From positions 248,001 through 312,000 of the forward strand of contig JACDGV010000002.1 in NCBI GenBank assembly GCA_013821425.1: a stretch of DNA of 64,000 nt, in the 5' to 3' direction. Positions 1,395 to 16,685 of this stretch are shown one piece after another. Origin of the DNA: Nitrosospira sp. Lineage in GTDB: Bacteria > Pseudomonadota > Gammaproteobacteria > Burkholderiales > Nitrosomonadaceae. The translations under genes and the position numbers were made by a program. The notes under the pieces are model-generated. The model was not told the DNA's origin, did no database searches, and saw nothing but the letters and a program-made list of their open reading frames with translations. The first letter of the stretch is position 1. Each line of letters starts with the position of its first letter.

Positions 1395-1432
1395 TATGAA
1401 TATGGAACAGCTCTGTGAACATGGAACAGCTT
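1395..1432 (+). repeat. 19-bp imperfect tandem repeat over the PLD start
   Basis: Two adjacent units, TATGAATATGGAACAGCTC and TGTGAACATGGAACAGCTT, cover the translation start. Because 19 is not a multiple of three, the first unit's ATG (1396) is out of frame with the enzyme and opens a 24-codon frame ending at 1470. The second unit supplies the in-frame GTG/ATG. The same arrangement is present in the downstream gene copy (3734-3771). Confidence 0.8.
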
Positions 1433-3622
1433 TATGCCGCCAAAGTGGATGCCGCGAAAGCTTCGGATGAGAAGCTTGGACACGCAGCATCCATCCTCAA
1501 GCCCGGCAGCAACTGCTGGCGCATCGAGCAAGCCGAGCGTGTCGCCTTTCTTGTCAATGGCGCTGCCTATTTTCGCGCCTTCCGGGAGACGGTAAAACAG
1601 GCACAGCGCTCAGTGCTGATCATGGCGTGGGATATCGATAGCCGGCTCGAGCTCATCCGGGAGCACGAACCCGACGGGTTCCCCATAAAATTAAGCGATT
1701 TCCTCGCCAACGTCTTGGACCGCAATGATCAACTCGATATCCACGTGCTGAATTGGGATTTTCCCATGATCTTTGCGGCGGACCGGGAGTGGATGCCGCT
1801 CTACAAGGACGAGTGGATATCCCACCCGAGGCTGCACTTTCATCTGGACGACCATTATCCCCCGGGAGGGTGCCATCACCAGAAAATTGTCGTGGTGGAT
1901 GACCAGGTGGCGTTTGTGGGCGGCCTGGACCTGACGTTCGGGCGTTGGGATACTCCGGAACACCTGCCACAGGACCCGCGCCGGTGCGATCTCCGAGGCG
2001 AGGCTGTACCACAGCCCTATCACGATATCCAGATAATGGTCTGCGGACCCATCGCAGCCGCCCTGGGTGATCTTGCCCGCGAGCGCTGGCATCGCGCCAC
2101 TGGGCAGGAACTGGCCTCGCCTCACATTCCATCCGGAAAGAGCTACTGGCCAGAGTATCTTGCGCCGGATGTGAAAAACGTTCAGGTCGGGATAGCCCGC
2201 ACCTTTCCCCGGCACGAGACCCAGGCAGAGGTGCGTGAAGTGGAACAACTCCTGGTGGATGCGATTGCCGCTGCCCGGACTTCGATCTACATTGAAGCCC
2301 AGTATTTTACTGCGGGCAAAGTCGCTGCCGCCCTTGTGAAGCGATTGGAGGAGACCGATGGGCCGGAAATCGTTGCGGTACTCCCGGAACACACCGTCGG
2401 CTGGCTATCTCAAAATACCATGGACGTTCTGCGCGAACGCGTTTTCAAGCGGCTTCAGGCGGCCGACCAGCACAGCCGGTTGCGCCTGTATCGTCCCTGT
2501 GTGCCGGGCCTTGATGGAGAATGCGTCAATGTGCACTCAAAGCTCATCATCATCGACGATGAACTGGTCCGCATCGGCTCCGCGAACCTCAATAACCGCT
2601 CAATGGGTCTGGATACCGAATGCGATCTTGTGATCGAGGCAAGCGGGAAACCGCACATTCGCGCCGCCATTAGCGCCTTCCGCAGCCGCCTGCTTGGCGA
2701 GCATCTGGGCAGCGAAGCCGGTGAGATTGAAGCCTGTCTTCAACGCGAAGGCTCCCTGATCGGTACGATAGAACATTTCTGCGGCTCTGGCCGGAGCTTG
2801 CGACCACTGGTGCTGCGTGTCACGCCCGATATGGATGCGCTGGTGCCCGATACACAGATCGTCGATCCAGACCAGCCCATCGATTCCGACCAGTTGATCA
2901 CCGAATTTATGCCGGAAGAGCAGCGCGAGCCCGCACGCAACCATATCCTGCTGATCGTATCGATACTCGCCGCCATTCTGGTACTGGCCGCCGCCTGGCA
3001 ATGGTCGCCCCTTAGGGAATGGGTTAGCATGGAGTCGATGCTGAGCCTGGCGGCCCAGGCCCAGCAAGCACGGGGTACGCCATTACTGGTATTCGGTGTT
3101 TTCCTTATCGCCGGCCTGGTTGCATTTCCGCTCACCGTGCTCATCGTCGTTTGCGTACTGGTATTCGGTCCCTGGCTTGGGTTCCTCTATTCGGCGCTGG
3201 GCGCGTTGTCGAGTGCGACAATGTCCTACGCGCTCGGCCATTTTCTGGGTCATGATACTGTTCGCCGGTTTGCCGGCAAAAAACTCGCAAAACTCAACAG
3301 GCGCTTGGCGCGGCGAGGGTTAATCACTATCATCATCGTTCGAATTATCCCCATTGCGCCTTTTTCAGTCATCAACATGATTGCCGGGGCCTCCCGCATC
3401 CGCTTCCGTGATTTTGCCCTCGGTACCGCCATAGGCATGCTGCCGGGGATCATGGCGATATCATTGTTTACGGATACCCTTGCTGCAACCATGCAAAAAC
3501 CGGATCTGCCGGCCTTCGCCCTGTTAGCCGTGATCGTGGCAGCCGTTATTGTCGCCGGCTGGGCAGTCTGGCGGTGGGAAAAAAAACACCTAAACTCTCG
3601 CTTGAGAGCCGAGACGGATTAA
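1415..3622 (+). CDS. Phospholipase D/cardiolipin synthase-like protein with C-terminal VTT membrane domain (copy 1)
   Basis: 735 residues. Two PLD catalytic motifs are intact: HQKIVVVDD with His155, Lys157, Asp162, and HSKLIIIDD with His374, Lys376, Asp381 followed by GSANLNNRS. This predicts phosphatidyl transfer or phosphodiester hydrolysis as in cardiolipin synthases. A transmembrane helix follows at about 511-530. A VTT/DedA-like (TVP38/TMEM64) domain fills 550-715, with FGPWLG and a conserved PG (MLPG). The start is GTG 1415 or ATG 1421 inside a 19-bp tandem repeat. The next gene is a near-identical copy and the third an EEP phosphatase, recalling the E. coli clsB-ybhP neighbourhood. The protein probably acts on membrane lipids at the inner membrane. 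Confidence 0.9.
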   Translation: MNMEQLYAAKVDAAKASDEKLGHAASILKPGSNCWRIEQAERVAFLVNGAAYFRAFRETVKQAQRSVLIMAWDIDSRLELIREHEPDGFPIKLSDFLANVLDRNDQLDIHVLNWDFPMIFAADREWMPLYKDEWISHPRLHFHLDDHYPPGGCHHQKIVVVDDQVAFVGGLDLTFGRWDTPEHLPQDPRRCDLRGEAVPQPYHDIQIMVCGPIAAALGDLARERWHRATGQELASPHIPSGKSYWPEYLAPDVKNVQVGIARTFPRHETQAEVREVEQLLVDAIAAARTSIYIEAQYFTAGKVAAALVKRLEETDGPEIVAVLPEHTVGWLSQNTMDVLRERVFKRLQAADQHSRLRLYRPCVPGLDGECVNVHSKLIIIDDELVRIGSANLNNRSMGLDTECDLVIEASGKPHIRAAISAFRSRLLGEHLGSEAGEIEACLQREGSLIGTIEHFCGSGRSLRPLVLRVTPDMDALVPDTQIVDPDQPIDSDQLITEFMPEEQREPARNHILLIVSILAAILVLAAAWQWSPLREWVSMESMLSLAAQAQQARGTPLLVFGVFLIAGLVAFPLTVLIVVCVLVFGPWLGFLYSALGALSSATMSYALGHFLGHDTVRRFAGKKLAKLNRRLARRGLITIIIVRIIPIAPFSVINMIAGASRIRFRDFALGTAIGMLPGIMAISLFTDTLAATMQKPDLPAFALLAVIVAAVIVAGWAVWRWEKKHLNSRLRAETD

Positions 3623-3753: not shown

Positions 3754-5955
3754 GTGAACATGGAACAGCTTTATGCCGCCAAAGTGGATGCCGCGAAAGC
3801 TTCGGATGAGAAGCTTGGACACGCAGCATCCATCCTCAAGCCCGGCAGCAACTGCTGGCGCATCGAGCAAGCCGAGCGTGTCGCCTTTCTTGTCAATGGC
3901 GCTGCCTATTTTCGCGCCTTCCGGGAGACGGTAAAACAGGCACAGCGCTCAGTGCTGATCATGGCGTGGGATATCGATAGCCGGCTCGAGCTCATCCGGG
4001 AGCACGAACCCGACGGGTTCCCCATAAAATTAAGCGATTTCCTCGCCAACGTCTTGGACCGCAATGATCAACTCGATATCCACGTGCTGAATTGGGATTT
4101 TCCCATGATCTTTGCGGCGGACCGGGAGTGGATGCCGCTCTACAAGGACGAGTGGATATCCCACCCGAGGCTGCACTTTCATCTGGACGACCATTATCCC
4201 CCGGGAGGGTGCCATCACCAGAAAATTGTCGTGGTGGATGACCAGGTGGCGTTTGTGGGCGGCCTGGACCTGACGTTCGGGCGTTGGGATACTCCGGAAC
4301 ACCTGCCACAGGACCCGCGCCGGTGCGATCTCCGAGGCGAGGCTGTACCACAGCCCTATCACGATATCCAGATAATGGTCTGCGGACCCATCGCAGCCGC
4401 CCTGGGTGATCTTGCCCGCGAGCGCTGGCATCGCGCCACTGGGCAGGAACTGGCCTCGCCTCACATTCCATCCGGAAAGAGCTACTGGCCAGAGTATCTT
4501 GCGCCGGATGTGAAAAACGTTCAGGTCGGGATAGCCCGCACCTTTCCCCGGCACGAGACCCAGGCAGAGGTGCGTGAAGTGGAACAACTCCTGGTGGATG
4601 CGATTGCCGCTGCCCGGACTTCGATCTACATTGAAGCCCAGTATTTTACTGCGGGCAAAGTCGCTGCCGCCCTTGTGAAGCGATTGGAGGAGACCGATGG
4701 GCCGGAAATCGTTGCGGTACTCCCGGAACACACCGTCGGCTGGCTATCTCAAAATACCATGGACGTTCTGCGCGAACGCGTTTTCAAGCGGCTTCAGGCG
4801 GCCGACCAGCACAGCCGGTTGCGCCTGTATCGTCCCTGTGTGCCGGGCCTTGATGGAGAATGCGTCAATGTGCACTCAAAGCTCATCATCATCGACGATG
4901 AACTGGTCCGCATCGGCTCCGCGAACCTCAATAACCGCTCAATGGGTCTGGATACCGAATGCGATCTTGTGATCGAGGCAAGCGGGAAACCGCACATTCG
5001 CGCCGCCATTAGCGCCTTCCGCAGCCGCCTGCTTGGCGAGCATCTGGGCAGCGAAGCCGGTGAGATTGAAGCCTGTCTTCAACGCGAAGGCTCCCTGATC
5101 GGTACGATAGAACATTTCTGCGGCTCTGGCCGGAGCTTGCGACCACTGGTGCTGCGTGTCACGCCCGATATGGATGCGCTGGTGCCCGATACACAGATCG
5201 TCGATCCAGACCAGCCCATCGATTCCGACCAGTTGATCACCGAATTTATGCCGGAAGAGCAGCGCGAGCCCGCACGCAACCATCTGCTGATCGTATCGAT
5301 ACTCGCCGCCATTCTGGTACTGGCCGCCGCCTGGCAATGGTCGCCCCTTAGGGAATGGGTAAGAGTTGAAACCCTGGTCAGTTTCGTGGCCGAATTACGG
5401 AAAAGCCCGGCCACCCCATTATTGGCGATCTGCCTTTTTGTTATCGGCGGCCTGGTTGCATTTCCGCTCACCGTACTCATCATTGCGTGCGTATTTGTAT
5501 TCGACGCATGGCTCGGCTTTCTCTACTCCCTGCTCGGCGCGTGCTTGAGTGCGATGACGACTTATGGACTCAGCCATATGTTGGGCCATGACATCATACG
5601 GCGATTTGCAGGTAATAAAATCAACGCGCTGAACAAGCGACTGGCCCAGCGGGGGATAATGACCATGGTGGTCGCGCGAATTTTCCCGTTTTCCCCATTT
5701 TTAATCATTAACCTGCTTGCTGGCGCCTCGCATATCCGCTTGCGGGATTTTGCTCTCGGTACCGCCATCGGTTTGGTCCCCCGAATTAGTGTAATTGCCC
5801 TGGTTACGGATTATCTCGTGACTCTTGACAAATCCGACCTGCCACCCGTTGCCGTATTCGCTGGAGTTGTCGTCATCATAATCGCAAGTGGCTTGGTAAT
5901 GTGGTGGTGGGAAAAGCGGCAGGGGAAATTGCGCCTGAGAGCGGAACACGATTGA
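3754..5955 (+). CDS. Phospholipase D/cardiolipin synthase-like protein with diverged VTT domain (copy 2)
   Basis: 733 residues. From its start to about residue 535 it matches copy 1 at DNA level except for one missing codon (NHILL becomes NHLL). Both PLD motifs (His155/Lys157/Asp162 and His374/Lys376/Asp381) are kept. After GGGAATGGGT (ending 5360) identity stops abruptly and the C-terminal VTT domain agrees with copy 1 only at roughly half of its positions. Conserved glycines differ: FGPWLG has become FDAWLG and LPG has become VPR. The catalytic half is therefore under gene conversion or recently duplicated, while the membrane half has diverged. It lies immediately before, and is probably co-transcribed with, the EEP phosphatase. 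Confidence 0.88.
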   Translation: MNMEQLYAAKVDAAKASDEKLGHAASILKPGSNCWRIEQAERVAFLVNGAAYFRAFRETVKQAQRSVLIMAWDIDSRLELIREHEPDGFPIKLSDFLANVLDRNDQLDIHVLNWDFPMIFAADREWMPLYKDEWISHPRLHFHLDDHYPPGGCHHQKIVVVDDQVAFVGGLDLTFGRWDTPEHLPQDPRRCDLRGEAVPQPYHDIQIMVCGPIAAALGDLARERWHRATGQELASPHIPSGKSYWPEYLAPDVKNVQVGIARTFPRHETQAEVREVEQLLVDAIAAARTSIYIEAQYFTAGKVAAALVKRLEETDGPEIVAVLPEHTVGWLSQNTMDVLRERVFKRLQAADQHSRLRLYRPCVPGLDGECVNVHSKLIIIDDELVRIGSANLNNRSMGLDTECDLVIEASGKPHIRAAISAFRSRLLGEHLGSEAGEIEACLQREGSLIGTIEHFCGSGRSLRPLVLRVTPDMDALVPDTQIVDPDQPIDSDQLITEFMPEEQREPARNHLLIVSILAAILVLAAAWQWSPLREWVRVETLVSFVAELRKSPATPLLAICLFVIGGLVAFPLTVLIIACVFVFDAWLGFLYSLLGACLSAMTTYGLSHMLGHDIIRRFAGNKINALNKRLAQRGIMTMVVARIFPFSPFLIINLLAGASHIRLRDFALGTAIGLVPRISVIALVTDYLVTLDKSDLPPVAVFAGVVVIIIASGLVMWWWEKRQGKLRLRAEHD

Positions 5956-11787: not shown

Positions 11788-13602
11788 TCACCACCATAAG
11801 CCTGTTTCCGGATACGACGTGTACTCCTCCGCCTCAACCGGGACTATGCCGGTAGCATGGGAACGCTTGAACTGGGCGGCACCGGTTTCTATTTGCTCCT
11901 TCATCCATTGCACGAACTTCGGGTGCGGGGCAAACCCGCTGCCCAGATCATATTCAAGCCCGGAGAGAAATCGCCGCTCCGGACCTTCCCCGGTTGTCCG
12001 TGCGGGTATCACGATAGCTCTCCCCCCATGCTTCGTTGCGTCTTCCACCATTTCGCGTACTTTTTCAATCCAGGGGGCGCGCTTGTCCCGCCAGTCCTCG
12101 CGCCACGTAGCCACCCTTATTGCCGCGAATTTCGCGCCGCCTGCATCGCGCATGTGTTCGGCTATCGCTTCCAGCGCGGTTTGCCATTGCGCGTTCTGGC
12201 GGTCGTCTCCCGACCCGTGCGCTACCAGGACTACCGTGTCGCACTGCGGATTCCTGGACAATGCGAGCGACCGGTCAAGCAACGCAGCCGCAAAAAGAGG
12301 ACTGGATCCCAAGCCCCCCACGGTCTCCACCGGCAAAGCCGTGCGAATCCGCGGCGCGGGCACCGCCGCCGATTCATTGGAATGTCCATGTCCATGCCCA
12401 TGACCGCTATTACCCCTGGTGGCGACATGATTGAGCGCCCGGGACTCTGCGCCTTCTCCTTCTATATCCAGACCCGTCATACGCTCGACGGCATCCCGAA
12501 AACTTTCCTCCAGCGCAAACACCCGTACGATTACAGCCGCCCTCGCGCCCCTGTGCTCCAGCTTGCGGATGGCACGCTCAATTGTTGCCGGGTCAGCCAT
12601 GGAGAATGCAAACTCGATTTTATAATCTTTCATCAACGGTTGAACCGCCTCGCGTATCGATTCGTTCCAGTTGAAATCCGACCCGTGCGAGAGGAGCACA
12701 ACGCCGATATCCTTTCTTGCGAGTTGCTGGTTCCGGTTGGCCACATGTTTTAGCCACGTTGCCAAATTCTCAACAACGGGATCAGCAGCTCCGCTGGCCT
12801 GGATCAACTCGACCTGTGCCGGCAGCAGACGTTTCAATCGGGCGTCGAACGACATCATGCTGTCGAACTTGGGGCCGAAATGAAACGGTACCACCTTGGC
12901 ATTGGGATCGCTATTGCTGTCGGTATCAGCTACCGCGGCGATCAATTCCCGTTTGAATTCAGCTGCCCGGATCTCCCCCTCATCGCCCCTGATATCATGC
13001 GCAATTACTACCGTGATCGATGCAAAACCAAAACCCGCCGCTGCCTTTTCCGCGATCCGATCCAGATCCGCGCGTATCTCCCGCTCGTTATCGGTATTCG
13101 TTGCGCCAAACCCGGCAACTACTATACGGCTATCTGCCGGATTCTTGATTACGCGGAATTTGTCGGCCAGATCCTCAACTGCAAAAAAAGTTTCACCATA
13201 AGGACGCGCGTACGAAACAGGAACACCGCCCCTCTCCTCCTCCAAAAGCCGGCGGACGAGCGCAAAACGCGGGTTTGCAGCCGAGATGAACAGGGGAATC
13301 ACGACAATGCGTACTGCTCCCCTGCCTACAACCGTATCAATACCTGCGCGAAGATATTTCCGGGTGCGCTCGTCGGTGACAAATACCAGTGACGCGTTGT
13401 GCTCCCGTCCAAATATGTCGAATGCGTCGATAATGTCTTCGTTTCCGGCGAAGCCGCGATCGGAGGCCAGAATGACAAAACCGGTTTTTACGTCCTGTTG
13501 AGGTTCGGCGCCGATCGCTGGACTCGGACCGGCAAATACCAATGTCAGCGCAGCAACCAGCGACAGATAAAACCAGCGCGAAATACCGCATTGTATTTTC
13601 AT
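11788..13602 (-). CDS. Exported multi-module CbiX/sirohydrochlorin chelatase-like protein
   Basis: 604 residues with a signal peptide (hydrophobic 11-24, likely cut near AIGA at 29-32). CbiX-type half-domains recur four times: GFVILASDRG (41), VVAGFGATNT (161), VVLLSHGSDF with His306, and VVLVAHGSGDD with His462. The SHGS/AHGS signatures are those of class II cobalto/ferrochelatases. A His-Gly linker (401-408, four His) precedes the last module. Cytoplasmic CbiX has one or two half-domains, so the length and export are unusual. A Fur box lies 84 bp upstream, so a role in periplasmic iron, cobalt or tetrapyrrole handling is inferred; chelatase activity is unproven. Confidence 0.8.
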   Translation of the reverse strand: MKIQCGISRWFYLSLVAALTLVFAGPSPAIGAEPQQDVKTGFVILASDRGFAGNEDIIDAFDIFGREHNASLVFVTDERTRKYLRAGIDTVVGRGAVRIVVIPLFISAANPRFALVRRLLEEERGGVPVSYARPYGETFFAVEDLADKFRVIKNPADSRIVVAGFGATNTDNEREIRADLDRIAEKAAAGFGFASITVVIAHDIRGDEGEIRAAEFKRELIAAVADTDSNSDPNAKVVPFHFGPKFDSMMSFDARLKRLLPAQVELIQASGAADPVVENLATWLKHVANRNQQLARKDIGVVLLSHGSDFNWNESIREAVQPLMKDYKIEFAFSMADPATIERAIRKLEHRGARAAVIVRVFALEESFRDAVERMTGLDIEGEGAESRALNHVATRGNSGHGHGHGHSNESAAVPAPRIRTALPVETVGGLGSSPLFAAALLDRSLALSRNPQCDTVVLVAHGSGDDRQNAQWQTALEAIAEHMRDAGGAKFAAIRVATWREDWRDKRAPWIEKVREMVEDATKHGGRAIVIPARTTGEGPERRFLSGLEYDLGSGFAPHPKFVQWMKEQIETGAAQFKRSHATGIVPVEAEEYTSYPETGLWW

Positions 13603-13685
13603 GGTTATTTGCTGGTGAATGGGTGAATGAGATGAGGCAGGCTATATGAGAATTTAGAAAATGCTCACCTGCCTGGAACCTTAAT

Positions 13686-13704
13686 ACTAATGAGAATGAT
13701 TGTC
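13686..13704 (-). promoter_or_regulatory. Fur box upstream of the CbiX-like gene
   Basis: The 19-mer ACTAATGAGAATGATTGTC (plus strand) agrees with the Fur consensus GATAATGATAATCATTATC at 14 of 19 positions, counting 6-6-1-6 hexamers. It lies 84 bp before the start of the exported chelatase-like gene, a normal place for iron repression. Confidence 0.65.
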
Positions 13705-14045
13705 AATATTGCATGAGGGCATATCATCTGGCCATAGCAACGCGTTTAAACAACTACGTTGCTGGGATCCACGTTGGAGGTACCGAATGCAGCTTGTTCC
13801 ATCTTCGGTACAAAAAAAAAGCGTGCGCCCCACCAGTTAACCCATTCCAAGGCGGAATCAGCGCTCCGCCTCGCTATCTTGCCAATCACATTGTTCGAAG
13901 TGGTAAATCGTGCAGAACCGACATTATGCGGCATTTATCGCTCCCGATATACCGCCGGATCGCCGCCGCACGGCAATCAGTCTATTAAATACCTTTCGTC
14001 GAACTGCCTTCGTTCCAGCCGCCATTGAACTGAAAGGGGAAAATG
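13705..14045. other. Gene-poor stretch, no gene recognised
   Basis: Short frames occur on both strands but none has a ribosome site or known family. A run of nine A's lies at about 13811-13819. Confidence 0.4.
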
Positions 14046-14669: not shown

Positions 14670-15200
14670 ATGAAAAAGTTATTAATATTAGCGGTCGCCC
14701 TGATGTTCCCCGCCTTTGCCGCGGTTGCGGAATCAGGAGATAAAAAGGGCAAACTCACTGATGCTGAGATTGCGCATGTTGTGGTTACCGCCAACACGGT
14801 CGATATTGAAAACGGCGAGCTTGCAAAAAAGAAGGCGTCGCATGAAGACGTCAAGGCATATGCCCATCGAATGATTGGCGAGCATACCGACGTCAATAAG
14901 CAGGCGCAGGAGTTAGCGACCAAGCTCAACGTGACGCCCAAGGATAATGAAATCAGCAAGAGCCTGAAAGACGATGGTAAAAAGAATTTGGACAAGTTGA
15001 AGGGCATGAGCGGAAAAGAATTCGACAAAGCCTATATCGATGCGGAAATCAAGCTCCATAAACAGGTAATTGACGTTGCCGACAAAAAACTTGTTCCGAA
15101 TGTCCAGAACGATGAGTTGAAAGCCTTGCTGGTCAAGGTTCGGCCATCGCTTGTCTCGCATCTTGAGCATGCCGAGAAGGTTAAGGACACGCTGGACTAA
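14670..15200 (+). CDS. Exported DUF4142 protein (copy 1)
   Basis: 176 residues: signal peptide MKKLLILAVALMFPAFAAVA, then a DUF4142 domain, a ferritin-like helical bundle usually found in the periplasm. Typical stretches are LTDAEIAHVVVTANTVDIENG, VKAYAHRMIGEHTDVN and the C-terminal RPSLVSHLEHAEKV. Function of the family is not established; it is often linked to stress. AAGGAGAA lies 5 bp before the ATG. A paralogue lies at 16164-16685. A hairpin at 15227-15252 closes the unit. Confidence 0.88.
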   Translation: MKKLLILAVALMFPAFAAVAESGDKKGKLTDAEIAHVVVTANTVDIENGELAKKKASHEDVKAYAHRMIGEHTDVNKQAQELATKLNVTPKDNEISKSLKDDGKKNLDKLKGMSGKEFDKAYIDAEIKLHKQVIDVADKKLVPNVQNDELKALLVKVRPSLVSHLEHAEKVKDTLD

Positions 15201-16163: not shown

Positions 16164-16685
16164 ATGAAAAATTTACTCATCCTGGCCACTGCGCTGATAT
16201 TTCCCGCCTTCCCCGTGTCTGCGGCGGATCTCAACGACGCGGAAATTGCAGGCATTGTAGTCGCTGCGAATGAGGTTGATATCGAAGCCGGCAGATATGC
16301 TCAAACCAAGTCGACCAATGAGGAGGTCAAAGCCTACGCCCATCGTATGGTTGGCGAACACACGGACGTTAACGAGTCAGCAAAAAAACTGGTAAGCAAG
16401 CTGGGAATCAAGCCTGAGGAGACCACCACTAGCCTGGGCCTGAAAGCCGAAGGAAAGGCAAACCTCATTAAATTCCGGGTGCTGGATGGCGAAAACTTCG
16501 ACAAGTCGTACATTAGCGAAGAAATTGAACTTCACAGAAAAGTGATTGATGTGGTAGACAAAAAACTGCTACCCAGTGCCAAGAATGAAGAACTGAAAGC
16601 AATGCTGAAGCAAGTGCGCCCATCCCTGGTTTCGCATCTTGAGCACGCGCAGAAAGTTCAGGGAATGTTAACTGGTAACCGCTAA
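16164..16685 (+). CDS. Exported DUF4142 protein (copy 2)
   Basis: 173 residues: signal peptide MKNLLILATALIFPAFPVSA followed by the same helical domain as the protein at 14670: LNDAEIAGIVVAANEVDIEAG, VKAYAHRMVGEHTDVN, RPSLVSHLEHAQKV. Clearly a tandem paralogue, diverged across the middle. AAAAGGAGA lies 5 bp before the ATG. Two hairpins downstream (16741-16767 and 16811-16847) end transcription towards the convergent ferritin-like gene. Confidence 0.88.
   Translation: MKNLLILATALIFPAFPVSAADLNDAEIAGIVVAANEVDIEAGRYAQTKSTNEEVKAYAHRMVGEHTDVNESAKKLVSKLGIKPEETTTSLGLKAEGKANLIKFRVLDGENFDKSYISEEIELHRKVIDVVDKKLLPSAKNEELKAMLKQVRPSLVSHLEHAQKVQGMLTGNR

Follow-up and report, generated by a model that had tools for sequence, protein, structure and literature searches.

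The gene considered here lies on the reverse strand of the window, by which we mean the whole 64-kb stretch of DNA that was analysed. It encodes a CbiX-like protein of four modules with a signal-like N-terminus and a His-rich linker between its third and fourth modules, and a Fur-like box lies upstream (Table 1, in which related loci carry our own L numbers; G numbers denote genomes). Near the gene, 14670-15200 and 16164-16685 encode similar proteins (57% identical), the first of which matches DUF4142. Elsewhere in the window, two tandem PLDc-VTT genes (1415-3619 and 3754-5952) are identical over about their first 510 residues with the VTT part diverged, which in the sequences looks as after gene conversion or partial duplication.

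Table 1. The four-module gene, its parts and its Fur-like box in the window, with gene orders around its relatives.
Feature	Position or loci	Strand	Basis or remark
Fur-like box	13686..13710	.	7-1-7 core 13691-13705
Apparently exported four-module CbiX-like gene (604 aa)	11788..13602	-	ORF with ATG start; Pfam CbiX 1.4e-10
Signal-peptide-like N-terminus, residues 1-32	13507..13602	-	hydropathy; 23/23 aligned proteins alike
Module 1, about residues 40-157	13132..13485	-	hhalign, module 1 against module 3, probability 94
Module 2, about residues 158-290	12733..13131	-	hhalign, module 2 against module 4, probability 88
Module 3, about residues 296-382, with LSHGS	12457..12717	-	match to CfbA model and to solved CfbA 6m25
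His-rich linker, residues 383-417	12352..12456	-	1-6 His in each of 23 aligned proteins
HGHGHGHS of the linker, residues 401-408	12379-12402	-	
Module 4, about residues 418-584, with VAHGS and APH	11851..12351	-	hhalign, exported two-module CbiX against module 4, probability 95
Codon of H306 in module 3, at the place of the first catalytic His of CbiX	12685..12687	-	invariant 23/23
Codon of H462, same position in module 4	12217..12219	-	invariant 23/23
Codon of H560	11923..11925	-	invariant 23/23
PEP-CTERM gene, receptor, four-module gene	L022-L025		four Nitrosospira loci; receptor upstream
DUF2325, four-module gene, receptor	L026, L027, L079-L084, L077 (weaker DUF2325 match)		receptor downstream
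Six-gene operon, one direction	L073		ExbB, ExbD, cytochrome c-FTR1 permease, receptor, four-module gene, DUF2325

The protein scores above the cut-off of the Pfam CbiX model (E 1.4e-10, in two stretches), and the CfbA model aligns with residues 300-362 at E 3.7e-7, a match far below that model's own cut-off. In profile-profile comparison its N-terminal and C-terminal halves are homologous (probability 98, E 3e-13), where the partners are modules 1 and 3 on the one hand and modules 2 and 4 on the other. Exported two-module CbiX proteins can be aligned with the C half over 212 columns (E 2e-11), and the family profile finds the solved structures of CfbA (6m25, which we take to be the M. jannaschii protein; E 6.5e-8) and SirB (E 8.7e-7). 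Judged by these profiles, the protein is a duplicated two-lobe class II chelatase unit of CbiX type, counting four modules against the one or two of the class II chelatases CbiX, CbiK, SirB and CfbA. Its modules have the alpha/beta half-domain fold of that class, with which the secondary structure of two weak AlphaFold2 models agrees. The full-length model, made with the window and L015 sequences, is of low confidence (pLDDT 44.8) with four beta/alpha runs still visible, and these runs, together with the homology of the halves, bear out the four half-domains that a sequence-only reading of this DNA had described. The C-half model, made with two sequences, is weak as well (pLDDT 49.5). A Foldseek search with it gave 1271 matches, 10 of them at E <=0.001 and 3 of these 10 to SirB or to DR2241, presumably a chelatase-like protein; SirB ranks 6th and CbiK 24th, and among the best 50 of the 1271 the query TM scores run from 0.17 to 0.33, with many sugar-binding proteins. 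Structure prediction, which that reading had proposed as a check, returns four beta/alpha runs and places chelatases among Foldseek's best, but from weak models and at low TM scores, and the result for the C half is only suggestive. The class I family CobN/ChlH has no counterpart here: the window protein lacks a CobN match in Pfam up to E 10, and identity with the CobN-like HmuS was rejected.

The modules are unequal in their motifs. Where HGS is expected, module 1 has an invariant DRGFxGN and module 2 has GYG or GFG, and HGS-type motifs occur in the window protein at H306 and H462 only, so that the two retained HGS motifs of the sequence-only reading are where it saw them, as is its HGHGHGHS linker. 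The invariance of H306, H462 and H560 refers to an alignment of 23 proteins that omits 4 of the 27 intact ones (L019, L020, L075 and L120); the same three residues are present in L019 and L020 (alignment A1) and, by reading, in L075 and L120. According to the available parts of two papers, characterised class II chelatases carry their catalytic His pair within one lobe, His9/His75 in CfbA and His145/His207 in CbiK (PMC7689651, PMC11301274). Aligned with CbiX and CfbA, the window protein retains the first catalytic His in modules 3 and 4 only; the position of the second corresponds to about P111 in module 1 and to S367/F368 in module 3, and a complete pair is found in neither half. The earlier designation as CbiX-like therefore stands, and any chelatase activity would be putative. 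In CfbA the tetrapyrrole lies between two His pairs, as an excerpt of PMC11301274 has it; since modules 3 and 4 are homologous to that enzyme, a haem could have H306 on one face and H462 on the other. The linker by itself is no novelty, because the CbiX-L of B. megaterium has a His-rich C-terminal region (PMC7689651, in part) and the CfbA of 6m25 has a His-rich stretch right after its LLGL strand, at the same place as the linker of the window protein.

A hydrophobic, signal-like N-terminus, called by a hydropathy threshold of our own, is present in all 23 aligned proteins and is preceded by net positive charge in 21 of them; in the window protein it reads MKIQCGISRWFYLSLVAALTLVFAGPSPAIGA. The Manganitrophus ORF of L120 has no recognisable export signal; its assembly may be frame-broken there. 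By hydropathy, the protein appears to be exported to the cell envelope, in agreement with what had been claimed for it.

The core of the Fur-like box, TGAGAATGATTGTCA at 13691-13705, equals TGANAATNATTNTCA with zero mismatches. It is the single match to a 7-1-7 box with at most one mismatch in the 64 kb, where 0.12 would be expected, and at least one such match occurred in 10 of 100 shuffles. In the classical 19-bp register the site scores 14/19 at 13686 and 15/19 at 13692, and by the same measure the window holds one other, unrelated 15/19 site, at 3319. Both the score of 14/19 and the distance of about 84 bp to the gene had thus been given correctly. Promoter-like sites are no commoner than chance and do not place the promoter of the gene. 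In relatives, 54 upstream regions were scored for Fur-like sites (14/19 or better), the background being the roughly 3.8% of stretches drawn at random from these loci that reach 14/19, real sites included. Such sites precede 10 of the 13 operon heads scored, that is, DUF2325 and PEP-CTERM starts: 7 of 9 DUF2325 starts reach 15/19 or better, with no Fur-like site at the DUF2325 heads of L081 and L082, and 3 of 4 PEP-CTERM starts have one of at least 14/19 lying 265-324 bp upstream. The starts of the four-module gene itself score at least 14/19 in 2 of 26 cases (the window and L018), and receptor starts in none of 15. Twelve further scorings, one of them a repeat, gave at least 14/19 in four, namely the gene of L120, the receptor of L120 (15/19), L100 and L103; the operon head of L073 reaches 9/19 only and has no Fur-like site, and the DUF2325 start of L119 reaches 11/19. 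The occurrence of the motif both in the window and at the heads of many operons of relatives supports the proposal that Fur controls this gene, and by its box the gene would belong to the Fur regulon.

The four-module gene was found in 13 of 61 genomes, the window's own included and one as a weak partial match; in 27 of 125 genomes of the family, 21 of them counted intact; in 9 of 369 genomes of the class (its own, four full-length and four weak or partial); and in 5 of 398 genomes of the phylum (its own, one half-length match at 4e-70 and three weak). Candidatus Manganitrophus, of the Nitrospirota, has full-length matches at 31% identity on two plasmids, one of them L120; a third match is in pieces. 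The matches on Manganitrophus plasmids also include H2, counted as a third. A scan of genome contigs with the single window protein returned one locus (Nitrosospira sp. Nsp14), and a scan of viral contigs returned no relative. At least four genomes of the family hold broken or fragmentary copies (G433, G434, G455, G501) and two lack the gene despite having the receptor described below (G479, G482), and the gene is therefore dispensable in places. Second CbiX-like ORFs occur in G498, G440 and G437 (open frames of 369-378 aa), in regions to which the four-module profile has no match.

For the neighbours of the gene, we examined 27 intact full-length loci, 26 from the screened genomes plus L120, and in 14 of them, the window not among these, the gene has a haem-type TonB receptor at most 500 bp away on the same strand; the HMM used was built from six adjacent receptors and may miss TonB receptors of other kinds. 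Thirteen of the 14 adjacent receptors pass the cut-off of the NCBIfam haem/haemoglobin receptor models TIGR01785 or TIGR01786, and the receptor of L083, a contig-end fragment, is unmatched at 1e-60. Wherever a locus has a match to the haem-receptor HMM at any distance, the nearest one is on the strand of the gene (17 of 17). The order with the receptor downstream and DUF2325 in front is found in the Nitrosomonadaceae genus g3. A DUF2325 protein recurs beside the gene or its haem receptor (L021, L026, L027, L073, L079-L085, L101, L103, L119). A PEP-CTERM-type gene lies directly before the haem receptor in L022, L023, L024, L025 and L100, with a Fur-like site of at least 14/19 upstream in four of these five.

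Thirteen loci have no haem-type receptor within 500 bp. Two of them stop at contig ends (L075, L085); three have another TonB receptor 1.5 to 2.8 kb off (L074, where it is siderophore-like, L076 and L120); two have siderophore-type receptors 3.6 to 4.8 kb off (L017, L021); and in the stretch examined around the window's gene and in L016, L018, L019, L020 and L078 two receptor HMMs find none. The genome of the window has no close receptor relative either, its best weak match to other receptors being at E 2.5e-8 with none at 1e-100; in G015 the gene and a haem-type receptor are both present, at separate places. The TonB receptors that were to be sought in the wider genome thus adjoin the gene in many relatives, but a close relative of theirs is missing from its own genome. 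Family-wide, 15 of the 17 genomes with the receptor also hold the gene (Fisher p 2e-10), a figure to be read with caution: the receptor profile (A2) derives from receptors adjoining the gene, which makes the test partly circular, and the genomes are non-independent; the association therefore rests on adjacency and on the NCBIfam models. Since the gene adjoins an outer-membrane haem receptor in so many relatives, a role in handling haem is suggested, and the neighbours support the earlier idea of a metal or tetrapyrrole function outside the cytoplasm.

Of the 25 genomes that hold an intact gene, 22 (all but G191, G439 and G495) were screened for other routes for haem and iron. Haem oxygenase of the PF01126 family is found in none of the 22, HemS in one, FeoB in one and FTR1 in six. 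FecCD permease is present in 13 of the 22 at E 0.001, and in the g3 genus in one of nine genomes.

Shorter exported cousins of the protein occur elsewhere. The two-module exported CbiX proteins keep both His of the catalytic pair in 3 of 3 aligned. In L119 such a protein adjoins HmuY, a TonB receptor, an FMN_bind/Fer4_5 protein and DUF2325, and on two Persicobacter plasmids (L122, L123) its neighbour is one ORF in which FMN_bind, Fer4_5 and a TonB receptor are combined; next comes HmuY in L122 and a 52% identical counterpart of HmuY in L123. This ORF, which lies between the CbiX lipoprotein-like gene and HmuY and includes both TonB plug and barrel (L122 9893-13525, 1211 aa; L123 9872-13540, 1223 aa), looks like a membrane redox module fused to an outer-membrane receptor. 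In the P. gingivalis Hmu system HmuY is a haemophore-like protein, as described in part of PMC13227078. Relatives of half length, exported or lipoprotein-like, are encoded at L087 7198-8169, L118 6421-7389 and L090 7270-9641, the pair of L090 having Met/His-rich N-terminal stretches, and no TonB receptor is among the neighbour genes scanned at these three loci.

What, then, might the four-module protein do? We lean, if only slightly, towards a protein that handles haem in the periplasm, downstream of TonB-dependent haem receptors, that is repressed by Fur under iron-replete conditions and that was built by duplication of a CbiX-type unit. The putative export signal, the duplication, the Fur-like box and the haem-receptor neighbours in relatives are the steps of this scheme that can be read from sequence. 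Haem arriving through the receptor would enter the tetrapyrrole cleft between modules 3 and 4, where H306 and H462, one per lobe, would flank the ring and could ligate its iron. From there the metal would pass to, or be buffered by, the His-rich linker and H560, and iron, or intact haem, would then be handed to the inner membrane. The N half, which has its own strict DRGFxGN and lacks metal histidines, may be a docking or scaffolding part.

This scheme could work in two ways, depending on whether haem is opened or passed on whole. It is possible that the protein is a true periplasmic haem dechelatase, which takes iron out of haem and leaves protoporphyrin, as the class II fold counterpart of the CobN-like HmuS. 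The operon of L073, with its FTR1 iron permease and fused cytochrome c, would suit such an activity, as would the FMN_bind/Fer4_5 redox modules beside the two-module cousins and the lack of PF01126 haem oxygenase in the genomes screened, and periplasmic release of iron from haem has a precedent in Bacteroides, going by portions of PMC6460266, PMC13227078 and PMC10100974. However, the His pair of the characterised CbiX, SirB and CfbA enzymes (PMC7689651, PMC11301274, in their accessible parts) is in neither half, and most of the genomes screened lack FTR1 and FeoB, and we consider a dechelatase a doubtful reading. A non-catalytic periplasmic carrier or store that protects imported haem and passes it on intact, for example towards cytochrome c maturation, appears to us scarcely likelier, and short of probable. 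Ammonia oxidisers contain very large amounts of c-type haem. The loss of the second His, with one His left per lobe, would fit bis-His binding better than metal insertion, and the absence of FecCD permease from eight of nine g3 genomes and the rarity of HemS are in keeping with a carrier, which leaves unexplained, however, the iron permease of L073 and the redox modules beside the two-module cousins. The permease and the redox neighbours speak for release; classical chelatase chemistry is made less likely by the missing second His.

Two further readings depart from haem handling altogether. Perhaps the ligand is another one imported through TonB, such as a ferric siderophore, a cobalt or nickel tetrapyrrole, or free metal bound on the His-rich linker. 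Siderophore-type receptors near L017, L021 and L074, the presence of at least one His in the linker of all 23 aligned proteins and the Met/His-rich stretches of the short cousins in L090 would be compatible with this, but the immediately adjacent receptors, with the one exception among 14, pass haem/haemoglobin models, and we hold another ligand to be unlikely. The CbiX family score would equally suit an ordinary cytosolic sirohydrochlorin chelatase with a long N-terminus. That reading was rejected as highly improbable, given the signal-like start in every aligned protein, the four modules, the incomplete His pair and the receptor neighbours.

To return to the haem-handling protein that we favour, a wider proposal may be ventured, although we hold it with considerable doubt. 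Across at least three phyla (Pseudomonadota, Nitrospirota and Bacteroidota, by the loci seen), exported CbiX-type proteins combined with TonB receptors and electron-supplying FMN/Fe-S or cytochrome modules might constitute a periplasmic route of haem-iron release that originated separately from the CobN-like HmuS route, and the four-module form of ammonia oxidisers might be a remodelled variant in which two His bind haem in a cleft and a His-rich stretch relays metal. Haem salvage by ammonia oxidisers would bear on the iron limitation of nitrification, and the acquisition of haem iron outside the cytoplasm without haem oxygenase is still debated, even for HmuS. The candidate ligands H306, H462 and H560 and the candidate partners DUF2325, FTR1-cytochrome c and FMN_bind/Fer4_5 are separately testable.

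In Nitrosomonas europaea, TonB receptors are under Fur control according to the part of PMC3050691 at hand, in whose main text, as available, the word chelatase is absent. Among open-licence papers, at the level of titles and the beginnings of abstracts, we found none that treats, for ammonia oxidisers, a CbiX-like protein encoded next to a haem receptor; for this reason the four-module form may be undescribed in these organisms. The HmuS/BtuS proteins of Bacteroidota are comparable: they are exported chelatase relatives encoded in a TonB haem receptor operon, induced by iron and haem starvation, and iron is presumed to be set free in the periplasm (PMC6460266, PMC13227078, both in part). They have the class I CobN-like fold, at about 1450 aa with a membrane anchor (PMC13227078, in excerpt), whereas the window protein has no CobN match. 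With CbiX-S, CfbA, SirB, CbiX-L and CbiK the window protein shares the module fold and the HGS motif, and with CbiX-L and CfbA also a His-rich region; these enzymes have one or two modules and the full His pair, whereas it has four modules, begins with a signal-like stretch and has no full pair. The periplasmic cobaltochelatase CbiK-P of Desulfovibrio vulgaris is an exported class II chelatase made of a single CbiK-type unit.

A further comparison is with FetB, which we take to be the same protein as IhtB and whose gene presumably lies beside a TonB receptor. The structure named 'Heme-binding protein FetB' (9b86) is the 40th match (E 5.3e-3) of the weak C-half model in Foldseek. FetB meets the profile of the two-module cousins at E 0.071, and searches with the window protein, with its C half and with its family profile do not reach it. 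A chain of 293 residues, FetB consists of one unit, whereas the window protein is a duplicated unit with a His-rich linker. IhtB of Porphyromonas gingivalis is an outer-membrane CbiK-like protein proposed to take haem iron outside the cell (available sections of PMC6460266 and PMC13227078), and with such an exported class II chelatase-like haem protein already published, the suggestion that a protein of this kind would be new for the family is not supported. Likeness to class II chelatases and a proposed role with haem are common to both, as export would be by the signal-like start of the window protein, but IhtB is placed in the outer membrane and proposed to act outside the cell in those accounts, whereas the window protein is read as periplasmic.
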